Assembly: GCF_022808865.1 (NCBI RefSeq)
Contig: NZ_JAKZLB010000003.1
Coordinates: forward strand, 574,015 to 638,014
Direction of reading: 5' to 3'
Source of the DNA: Geothrix oryzisoli
GTDB lineage: Bacteria; Acidobacteriota; Holophagae; Holophagales; Holophagaceae
DNA: 64,000 bases
Part shown: positions 16,689-19,398 of the stretch, in pieces
Position numbering within the stretch: position 1 is the first letter of the stretch
How the letters are laid out: the number at the start of each line of letters is the position of its first letter
Program-made: the position numbers and the translations under genes
Notes under the pieces: generated by a model
Database searches by the model: none
What the model was told of the DNA's origin: nothing
Seen by the model: the letters and a program-made list of their open reading frames with translations, nothing else

Positions 16689-17450
16689 CTATCCCCGGGC
16701 CGGCCTGTTGAAGGCCGCGTCGAAATCGGCCTGCCGCGCCAGGGTCTCGGGGCAGCCGAGGTCGAGCCGGAGGGGCGTGACGCTGGCGAAGCCCTCGAAC
16801 ACGGCTCCGGCGTCGCTGCCGGGGGCCTTGGCGTAGGTGGGGCCTGCGTCGCCGCCGATCCAGAAGTAGGGGGTGTTCCGGGGATCGGTCCGGCGTTCCA
16901 CCAGGTCGTGGTAGGCCCGGCTGTCCTGACCCGTGAGCCGGAACCCCTTCGGCTCGCCCTTGGGGAAGTTCACGTTCCAGATGCGGTTGGCGGGCAGCTC
17001 CATGGCCTCCCAATGATCGAGGAAGCGCCCGATCCAGGGCTCCGCATCCTCCAGGCGGCCCTGGGGATGGATGGAGAAGGCCGCGGCCCGGGCGCCCTGG
17101 AGCCGGCCTTCGAAGGCGGCGCCCACGGTGCCGGAGTAGAACACGTCCTCGCCCAGGTTGAAGCCGTGGTTGATGCCGGAGAGCACCCAGTCCGGCCGGC
17201 GGTCCAGCACCTCGCAGACGCCCAGCAGCACGCAGTCCACCGGCGTGCCGTCGCAGGCGTGGCGGTCGGGTCCGATCTCGTGCAGGCGGAGGATGTTGTG
17301 CAGGCTCAGGGCCGAGGAGATGGCCGAGCGGTTGCGGTCGGGCGCCACGGTGACCACCCGGCCGAAGCGGGCGGCCACCCGGGCCAGGGCCGCCAGGCCC
17401 GGGGCCCAGAGACCATCGTCGTTGGTGAGCAGGATCAGGCGTTCGGGCAT
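16689..17450 (-). CDS. surE: 5'/3'-nucleotidase SurE
   Basis: 253-residue metal-dependent nucleotide phosphatase. The N-terminal LLTNDDGLWAPGL provides the paired aspartates for the metal, and APDRNRSAISSALSL and SGINHGFNLGEDVFYSGTVG are conserved SurE blocks. The ATG at 17450 is used; a longer frame to 17567 would run into the palindromic element. First gene of the surE-acyP-apt unit. Apt produces AMP and SurE can remove its phosphate, so the grouping has a nucleotide-salvage theme. Confidence 0.93.
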   Translation of the reverse strand: MPERLILLTNDDGLWAPGLAALARVAARFGRVVTVAPDRNRSAISSALSLHNILRLHEIGPDRHACDGTPVDCVLLGVCEVLDRRPDWVLSGINHGFNLGEDVFYSGTVGAAFEGRLQGARAAAFSIHPQGRLEDAEPWIGRFLDHWEAMELPANRIWNVNFPKGEPKGFRLTGQDSRAYHDLVERRTDPRNTPYFWIGGDAGPTYAKAPGSDAGAVFEGFASVTPLRLDLGCPETLARQADFDAAFNRPARG

Positions 17451-17480
17451 GGGGCCAGTGTACCCCGTGGGTCCGGCCTT

Positions 17481-17752
17481 AGAGTGCCTAACAGAACCCC
17501 GACGAGGTCGCGAGAAAGCCAGGTGGGATGCACCGCAAGGAAGGGCCCGCAGGGCGATGCGGGACATCGTTCAAGGGCCGTGACGCCGCGGGGCGCCCAC
17601 CTGGCTTTCTCCCTCCGGGCGAGGGCCGGCGGGCGTCACGATGCCGCGTCACGCTCGTCGCGCGTAGTACCCGCTACGCATCTCCTCGCGTTCCTCGCCT
17701 CGCTCGCCCGGCGGCCCTCGCGCGGCCCCGTGGGGGTTCTGTTAGGCACTCT
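17481..17752. repeat. 272-bp element with 20-bp terminal inverted repeats and nested palindromes
   Basis: Ends are perfect inverted repeats: AGAGTGCCTAACAGAACCCC at 17481-17500 and its complement at 17733-17752. Nested inside are a perfect 16-bp pair (GAGAAAGCCAGGTGGG, 17512-17527, with 17596-17611), a 17-bp imperfect pair (near 17618-17636 and 17705-17722), and a small hairpin GCGTAG/CTACGC near 17661-17680. It has no transposase and no convincing ORF, so it resembles a non-autonomous MITE-like or REP-type element. It fills the 338-bp gap between surE and the sigma-factor gene; the latter starts 37 bp beyond its right end. Confidence 0.75.
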
Positions 17753-17788
17753 TAATCGCTGTCAGGATGGAATTCACCTTCCCGTTCC

Positions 17789-18382
17789 ATGGATCCCGAC
17801 GCCCTGACCCCTCCCGCCCTGCCGCTCCCCCTGGGGGAGGCCTTCGTCGCGGAGGCCGGGATCGGCCGGACCGCCCTCCTCGCGCCCCTCCGTGAAAGGA
17901 TCGTGGCGTTCGCGGCATCCCGGGGTGCAGGCGCCCATGCGGAGGACCTGGCGCAGGAGGTGCTGGTGCTGCTCCACACGAAGTACGGCCATCTGGACAC
18001 GGCGGAGGACCTGGTCCCCCTGGCCTTCCAGATCCTGCGCTTCAAGCTGGCGGCCCTGCGGCGCAAGGCGGCCCGGCGGGGCGAGTATGACGCGGTGGAC
18101 GTGGACGCCTTCCCGCCGCCCTCGGACGCCCCGGATCCCGCCACGGTGCTGGAGCGCAAGGAACTGCTGGCCCGGCTCCTGGGCGGGATCGCCCGCATGG
18201 GGGAGCGCTGCCGGGAGCTGTTCCGGCTCAAACTCCAGGGCCGCACCTTCGCGGAGATCCAGGGCCTCATGGGCGCGGCCAGCCTCAACACCATCTACAC
18301 CTGGGACCACCGCTGCCGGAAGCAGCTGCTGGAAACGCTGGGCGGGCGCTGGGACGGAGCTTCCGGAAGGGGGGCGCCATGA
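17789..18382 (+). CDS. ECF-like RNA polymerase sigma factor
   Basis: 197 residues. Region 2 is seen around AEDLAQEVLVLLHTKYGHLDT, and region 4 as RCRELFRLKLQGRTFAEIQGLMGAASLNTIYTWDHRCRKQL, the helix-turn-helix that contacts the -35 element. Regions 1 and 3 are missing, as expected for ECF factors. It overlaps the next gene by ATGA, the usual coupling of an ECF factor to its anti-sigma protein. The start at 17789 has only a weak ribosome-binding site. The promoter must lie in or next to the palindromic element just upstream. Confidence 0.82.
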   Translation: MDPDALTPPALPLPLGEAFVAEAGIGRTALLAPLRERIVAFAASRGAGAHAEDLAQEVLVLLHTKYGHLDTAEDLVPLAFQILRFKLAALRRKAARRGEYDAVDVDAFPPPSDAPDPATVLERKELLARLLGGIARMGERCRELFRLKLQGRTFAEIQGLMGAASLNTIYTWDHRCRKQLLETLGGRWDGASGRGAP

Positions 18383-19398
18383 AGCGCGCCGAGGCCGAGA
18401 AGCTGCTGGGCGGCCATGCCACCGGGAACCTGACCGCCGAGGAGCGGCGGAGGCTGTTCGAGGCGGCCCTGGCGAGCCAGGACCTGTTCGACGCCCTGGC
18501 CGACGAAGAGGCCCTGCGGGAGCTGCTGGCGGATCCGGCCGCCCGGACCCAGGTGCTGGCCGCCCTCGCTGCTCCGGCTGGGCCGAAGGTCGTGCCCTTC
18601 TGGCGGCGGCCCGGCCTGATCGGGGCCGCCGCGGGGCTTATCGTGGCCACTACCGCCGGTCTGGCGATCCTGCGCAGCCCCGAGGCCCCACTGCCGGCCG
18701 CCAAGGTGGAGGCGGCTCCGGCGCCCGCGGCGGCGCCCGCAGCCGAGGCCAAGCCGGGCCCCGCGCCGGCCGCGAAGACGGCCCGGTTCCGGGAGGCGGC
18801 CGAGCCACGCCAAGCGCAGACCGCCCCCGCCTCGGGGAACCTGGCGGCGCCTGCCCCGACCCCAGTCCCATCGTCGGCCCCGCCGCCAGCCCCGGTCCAG
18901 GCCGCCGGGGCCGTGGCGCCTTCGGAAGCGGCCCGGCGCCAGCTGGAGGTCCGCGACCAGGTGGCCCGGAAGGAGGTCTCGGTGGGCCAGCGCCGGGCCG
19001 CCGCGGTGGCGGAGGTGCTGGGGTCCGTGTCGACCGCGCCCGGCCTGGCCGTGACGGCCGCGCCCGCCGGCGGGCCTCCGGCCTCCCTGACCGTGGCGCC
19101 GGTGTGGACCCTCGACCCGCTGCCGGATGGCTCCACCCGCGTGACCGTGCGGTCCGCTCCGACGCCCCATGTGGTCCTGCTCCGACGCGGGGAGGCCGGG
19201 GTCGAGGTGCTCGTACCCGCGCCCACGGGCGGCTCAGGCCCCTGGCGGTTCCAGGTCCGCCTGGCGCCCGGCGACGCCTTGGACCTCTACGTGATGAACG
19301 ATCCGGTGACCGACGCGGCGAAGCTGCCGGAAACGGGGCCTGTGAAGGGCTTCCGGGCCCGGATCCAGCCGCCCGCAAAAAAGGATCCGCCCCGCTGA
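18379..19398 (+). CDS. Probable membrane anti-sigma factor, single-pass with Ala/Pro-rich linker
   Basis: 339 residues. An N-terminal cytoplasmic helical domain of about 70 residues (AEKLLGGHATGNLTAEERRRLF) resembles anti-sigma domains and precedes a single helix (GLIGAAAGLIVATTAGLAIL). After the helix come about 130 residues rich in Ala and Pro, then a beta-rich C-terminal domain (TLDPLPDGSTRVTVRSAPTP onward). No HxxxCxxC zinc motif is present, so it is not a ZAS-type anti-sigma factor. Role inferred from its position and the ATGA overlap with the sigma gene. Confidence 0.65.
   Translation: MKRAEAEKLLGGHATGNLTAEERRRLFEAALASQDLFDALADEEALRELLADPAARTQVLAALAAPAGPKVVPFWRRPGLIGAAAGLIVATTAGLAILRSPEAPLPAAKVEAAPAPAAAPAAEAKPGPAPAAKTARFREAAEPRQAQTAPASGNLAAPAPTPVPSSAPPPAPVQAAGAVAPSEAARRQLEVRDQVARKEVSVGQRRAAAVAEVLGSVSTAPGLAVTAAPAGGPPASLTVAPVWTLDPLPDGSTRVTVRSAPTPHVVLLRRGEAGVEVLVPAPTGGSGPWRFQVRLAPGDALDLYVMNDPVTDAAKLPETGPVKGFRARIQPPAKKDPPR

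Follow-up and report, generated by a model that had tools for sequence, protein, structure and literature searches.

A folded, transposase-free DNA element of Geothrix with one core under several sets of insertion sequence-like ends

In Geothrix oryzisoli, a palindromic element without a transposase gene lies between the divergent surE gene and a gene for an ECF-type sigma factor, within the 64,000-nucleotide stretch of DNA analyzed here (the window). Does it serve its neighbors, for instance as a promoter or a regulatory RNA, or is it a mobile element? Our comparisons argue that it is probably (probability about 0.75) a MITE-like satellite of IS elements, composed of a non-coding folded DNA core of approximately 230 bp and of exchangeable inverted ends, which we call coats.

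A sequence-only reading of this DNA had described a 272-bp transposase-free element with perfect 20-bp inverted ends and further internal repeats. All of these are real: the 20-bp repeats (17481-17500 / 17733-17752) form the outer part of a 40-nt pair, and the internal repeats are a perfect 16-bp pair (17512-17527 / 17596-17611) and a 21-bp pair matching at 90% (17615-17635 / 17705-17725). We trimmed the element to 270 bp with 19-bp perfect ends because the outermost A/T belongs to the TTA flanks (Table 1). This length, below about 500 bp and too short for a transposase, and the perfect terminal inverted repeats are both features of MITEs. The predicted fold of the window copy consists of a terminal stem plus a pair of long hairpins, with an energy of -103.4 kcal/mol as single-stranded DNA, compared with -67 ± 3.57 for 200 shuffled sequences (z = -10.2). 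The consensus fold of 39 elements, aligned like all others in the orientation of the + strand of the window copy, has an extra small stem of two pairs between the hairpins. The notion that hairpin 1 is an inverted copy of hairpin 2 was rejected, the overall signal being weak (mean z of 1.6, n = 39). The covariance model R2 described below also matches the opposite strand beside some of its matches, an observation that bears on the likeness of the two hairpins.

Table 1. Positions of the element, its parts and the neighboring genes in the window
Feature	Position	Strand	Remarks
Whole element, 270 bp, coat type A	17482..17751	+	Boundaries from comparison of ends and flanks of 60 A-coat copies
Left terminal inverted repeat, GAGTGCCTAACAGAACCCC	17482..17500	+	Similar ends on the IS5-family element L058:1118-1986
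Right terminal inverted repeat	17733..17751	-	Perfect complement of the left repeat
TTA flank	17479..17481	.	Presumed target duplication (TNA)
TTA flank, second copy	17752..17754	.
Core hairpin 1	17512..17611	+	Perfect 16-bp base stem; helices 3-5 of the consensus fold
Apical CGATG/CATCG of hairpin 1	17555-17559/17565-17569
Core hairpin 2	17615..17725	+	Helices 7-10 of the consensus fold
Apical GCGTAG/CTACGC of hairpin 2	17662-17667/17674-17679
surE	16689..17450	-	PF01975, E = 3.6e-50; assumed ATG at 17450, 31 bp from the element
ECF-type sigma factor gene	17789..18382	+	TIGR02937, 44.7 bits (cut-off 42.9); start 37 bp from the element

The position of the element, which fills the spacer to within 31 and 37 bp of the assumed start codons, invites the view that it acts there as a promoter or regulator of the sigma gene or of surE, and a longer ORF option for surE even runs into it. 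The same locus in relatives speaks against this. We fetched 30 sigma-gene loci from the 36 genomes with a match, and 19 of them have a short empty spacer, i.e., their aligned gene ends are 21-73 bp apart, with no end sequence in between; 10 of these 19 gaps measure 65-67 bp and look alike. The other 11 loci are the window's own, eight with approximately 1.26-1.36 kb and another ORF, and two without surE. Scanning positions 17400-17850 for sigma-70-like promoters and for terminators gave no match, and neither did Rfam up to E = 1 within 17300-17950. With no excess of G-U pairs either (see below), the earlier suggestion that the element supplies a promoter or a regulatory RNA to the sigma gene is unsupported, and we consider a regulatory role at this locus very unlikely. 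The empty spacers mark the element as an insertion, which split the surE/sigma spacer.

Two stretches outside the element look conserved and are perhaps parts of promoters or leaders: CAGTGTA near the surE start (within 17451-17481), present in 14 of the 19 spacers without the element, and a GCTGNCAGGATGG-like sequence ahead of the sigma gene (within 17755-17788). Eight Geothrix loci (L166, L168, L170, L177, L178, L180, L185 and L188) contain an ORF of gene size between surE and the sigma gene, the longest measuring 375-419 aa. In the window, the sigma gene, whose product matched nothing in Pfam at E ≤ 0.001, is followed by a gene for a 339-aa protein (18379-19398) that matched neither Pfam nor NCBIfam models at E ≤ 0.001; its position suggests a sigma-linked partner.

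The element is repeated in its own genome, with seven full-length copies at 82-100%. Altered copies included, this genome harbors at least 15 elements, nine with coat A (two of altered length) and six with coat B, one of which (L015) was judged by one end. Within the genus, 33 of 37 genomes gave matches at the DNA level, compared with none of 23 genomes outside it, with up to 12 candidates scored per genome. A 25-base piece of the core occurs in 71 stretches of a genome collection, all labeled Geothrix, Holophagaceae or Acidobacteria except for one labeled Proteobacteria (L105, JACZSK010000022.1), possibly a misbinned contig. Plasmid and phage collections gave no match at E ≤ 0.001 in a search of distant-DNA sensitivity, and no viral contig contained an exact 23-mer. 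For more remote relatives we used alignment A1, which comprises 39 of 42 non-redundant elements picked from 66 complete ones. Thirty-one of its 39 rows served to build two covariance models, R1 and R2, the latter of which was used for the searches. Among 297 genomes of the phylum, R2 matched in 30, including 10 from beyond the genus and 8 from beyond the family, with best E-values of 9e-12 (same family) and 4e-10 (outside the family) and a weakest value of about 1e-5, all of them rough, per-genome values. The architecture of the core is thus recognizable in other Acidobacteriota families. The copies, the empty sites in relatives and the ends held in common with transposase-bearing elements (see below) support the sequence-only proposal of a non-autonomous mobile element.

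We then compared the ends of these elements. The core search yielded 139 hits, of which 108 were kept after a 100-bit score cut and removal of duplicates. Both ends were recognizable, with at most five mismatches to a coat, in 77 of the 108 distinct hits: 60 carry coats of the A types, 13 coat B, two coat C, and one each coats D and E. The remaining 31, part of which were viewed individually, lacked a classification at one end or at both, in some cases because of contig ends or modules. An inverted end pair, with at least four overlapping seeds each, was found in 50 of 54 covariance-model loci, a set that overlaps the earlier loci, and the end pair was present at 7 of 10 loci outside the genus. 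As a control, the same finder reached at least four overlapping seeds at 1 of 101 places 800 bp away. The core itself carries modules. One is a 42-bp hairpin (GATATC...TCTCGYGTATCGCC..GGCGATACCGAG) that 14 distinct copies, with A and B coats, have at an identical point of hairpin 1; its carriers include L008, L095, L096, L102, L103, L107, L144 and L156. The other is longer, lies mostly in hairpin 2 and occurs in nine distinct copies with A and C coats, the coat being uncalled for some module-bearing copies; it replaces part of hairpin 2 in L008/L010, L104, L106, L116, L155 and L245.

MITEs are usually taken as tied by their ends to one parent transposon. Here, the ends match an autonomous element for each of coats A, B and C. 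The putative helper of coat A is an 869-bp IS5-family element of another Geothrix species (L058:1118-1986), whose ends have one and three mismatches in 16, with TTA on both sides and a match to the IS5 model NF033580 in two frames; the resemblance is restricted to approximately the first 16 bp. By its ends, the helper of coat B would be an 867-bp element in L080, also with NF033580 in two frames (IS5). Coat C ends are found on L077 (one and three mismatches in 17) and on L064 (one and one); the protein of L077, the one of the two that was scanned, belongs to the IS1182 family (NF033551, 381.9 bits, cut-off 270). Reversed patterns searched in the same 38 transposase loci gave 0, 0 and 1 hits for A, B and C, respectively. 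By comparison of its ends with those of the 869-bp element, the window element is a MITE, and the same two-hairpin core occurs under ends matching those of another IS5-family element and of one from the IS1182 family. The transposase loci tested held no helpers for coats D to M.

An A-end-like sequence (at most two mismatches in 18) is present in 39 of 47 genomes of the genus, with one hit in total for the control pattern. The PF01609 transposase search was positive in 20 of 47 genomes. For coat B, genome G019 adds six near-identical transposase matches. PF13359 matched in 3 of the 47 genomes, and six of its eight matches were the G019 transposases already counted. The IS1182 model, run on 15 chosen genomes, gave weak matches in six, none over the cut-off; near them we found scattered single hits to coat patterns (coat E not included) with two to three mismatches and no inverted pair. 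The genome of the window element has no PF01609 match, and therefore movement there would be past or dependent on an incoming IS.

A tree of the cores (59 rows) gives some indication of when the coats changed. The cores that carry coats E, H, I, J and A7 group with A cores in a clade of 15 rows (support 100/100), and some coat changes are thus recent by the tree, though H, I and J may represent drift rather than exchange. Coat B cores form one clade of 17 with one stray, and the B and A cores are in separate clades. Coat C (L052 and L235, which are one element) joins an A core on a long branch with weak support (96/53), and several distant rows on long branches are placed without certainty. 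Given the separate A and B clades and the weakly placed coat C, the changes between A, B and C may be old; for A and B, the change is old as judged by the core tree.

The ends might not have been swapped at all, and instead have drifted quickly while tracking diverging relatives of a single transposase. This fits the graded series of coats A, A2, A3, A8, H, I and J, which keeps an outer GAG and an inner run of C. However, each of coats A, B and C matches a different transposon, from two named families in all, and the three coats are little alike by eye, and an informal look at the 77 two-ended elements revealed no apparent chain of intermediates from A to C. We regard drift as a possible explanation that has less than even odds.

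Exchangeable coats are in keeping with how ends and core diverge. The ends are usually the best-conserved part of a MITE, whereas here they vary more than the core, diverging approximately twice as fast (25-31% vs 12%). Among 32 A-clade elements (496 pairs), the mean difference is 31% for the ends and 12% for the core, and the ends differ more in 463 of the 496 pairs; the two ends of any one element nevertheless pair at 95%. The same holds in alignment A1 for the 24 A/E rows (25% vs 12%; ends differ more in 243 of 276 pairs) and for the 13 B rows (25% vs 12.5%; 61 of 78 pairs). A core that appears stable while its ends change to match different mobile elements is the reverse of the usual arrangement in such elements.

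We also asked how the fold is maintained. Over the 39 elements with all coats, 95.5% of cells pair, and 57 of 86 pairs show paired change across coats, amounting to 480 cells vs 140 ± 8.6 after shuffling and 45-89 after sliding. Paired change is present within the A/E cores (61 vs 18.6) and within the B cores (49 vs 16.7). An RNA function was first favored on account of these paired changes and of the lower consensus energy of the + strand (-89.8 vs -81.0; lower in 31 of 39 elements), and was dropped after a strand-neutral count of G-U pairs. The two strand folds share 55 pairs, in which G-U cells number 24 and A-C cells 39, and therefore no RNA strand stands out; a rough control with nine tRNAs gave 12 and 0, although the tRNA finder itself favors G-U. 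The proposal that a functional structured RNA constitutes the core, is spread by transposition and is used by host genes could also draw on the optional stems at fixed places, as seen in large RNAs. Nevertheless, the elements have no clear orientation bias with respect to co-directional neighbors (15 vs 11), copies at fixed sites collect pair-breaking changes, and no Rfam match was obtained around the element, as noted above. We consider this proposal highly improbable.

The comparison of fixed and moving copies points elsewhere. Orthologous copies, i.e., seven pairs at the same site in different genomes representing five independent sites, show one double and 34 single changes, a count that leaves out two double changes that were not pair-to-pair. 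In paralogous pairs with 7-16 differences (114 pairs, 31 elements), there are 91 double and 405 single changes, and 1.2% of 5000 random sets of five disjoint paralogous pairs were as low as 1 in 27. Since doubles are few at fixed sites and co-variation is found between sites, pairing seems to be kept in the moving lineage and not by the host. Paired change thus seems to go with movement rather than with residence, in a small sample of five independent sites.

Palindromes are also subject to quasipalindrome repair, a templated correction of one arm by the other. The element could accordingly belong to an ordinary MITE family whose hairpins are by-products of such correction, with no selection on the fold. 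The symmetry of the pair changes between strands (24 G-U and 39 A-C cells in 55 pairs) is what a process at the DNA level would give, and the ends change in concert, being 95% paired within elements and 31% different between them. Yet correction should also act on fixed copies, which show one double and 34 single changes; between coats A and B, agreement is as frequent at unpaired core positions (64/89) as at paired ones (97/136), and the architecture is recognizable in other families of the phylum. We find this explanation unlikely.

The flanks of the copies indicate preferred targets. The consensus of 60 A copies is mostly C-T-N-A / element / T-N-A-G, and that of 16 B copies is C-T-A / T-A-G; the window copy has TTA on both sides. 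The presumed target duplications are imperfect: the flanking 3-mers are identical in 16 of the 60 A copies (6.9 expected by re-pairing), and both flanks are TNA in 27 of the 60, 15 of which have the same middle base. In B copies, TA is present on both sides in 8 of 13, and the 3-mer is identical in none. By a heuristic gene call, A elements face 57 gene 3' ends vs 31 gene 5' ends, and of the 57 corresponding stop codons, 35 are located between -10 and +12 bp from the element. The stop codons TAA, TGA and TAG are compatible with the target, and duplication of TNA or TA could therefore leave a stop codon whole. Among 42 A elements with both neighbors called, 14 lie between convergent, 26 between co-directional and 2 between divergent genes, and the divergent site of the window thus belongs to a rare class.

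We propose that a satellite of this kind would move as follows. Each coat would let whichever IS transposase recognizes it mobilize the element in trans, the helper types with matching ends being two of the IS5 family and one of the IS1182 family. Insertion would take place into CTNAG- or CTAG-like sites, often next to a stop codon that the duplication would keep intact. In the moving lineage, the ends and internal hairpins would stay paired while their letters change, and copies left behind would gather single changes. Folding itself may aid mobility, and some process would have to make both ends change together. A core outlasting its ends would be the DNA-transposon counterpart of a helper-switching satellite, and changing ends would explain why the repeat persists in genomes devoid of a helper IS. 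A bolder version, which we put forward tentatively as less probable than its opposite, holds that the folded core is itself a selfish DNA satellite across Acidobacteriota, selected for its shape in the moving lineage, that takes on new coats from unrelated IS families and thereby outlives any single helper transposon. If so, the fold would play a transposase-independent role in mobility, e.g., as a single-stranded or cruciform substrate. The family offers a natural test of whether selection on fold-back structure acts during movement or within the host.

Several known systems are similar in part. MITEs from bacteria and archaea, among them RUP, Correia/NEMIS and those of Haloquadratum (PMC2229807, PMC3119063, PMC10969869), are likewise short and transposase-free, with inverted ends common to IS elements, target duplication and a strong fold-back structure. 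As described there, they have one end set per family, tied to one transposon, whereas here one core has several end sets that vary more than the core. TIMEs, as presented in part of PMC4133298, are also transposase-free and take part in mosaic transposons, but they derive from Tn3, and that text makes no mention of a common folded core under the ends of other families. REP elements, some associated with tyrosine transposases, are palindromic and repeated as well, and their termini can provide neighboring ORFs with a stop codon; in the excerpts of PMC3733652, however, the units measure 20-40 bp, have GTAG or CGTC tags and lack long inverted ends matching IS5 or IS1182. The element differs in length and ends from this REP/REPIN class of short GTAG/CGTC palindromes with a RAYT gene. 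The CIR of Caulobacter and Brucella share the two long hairpin arms but are listed, in the part of PMC2229807 concerned, without a terminal inverted repeat. Titles and abstract openings of the open-licence PMC papers examined yielded no account of the element or of re-coated bacterial MITEs. We also observed very short elements that consist of little more than the two ends (G000:C1:801024-801105, G024:C1:27041-27090 and G011:C50:18407-18458).
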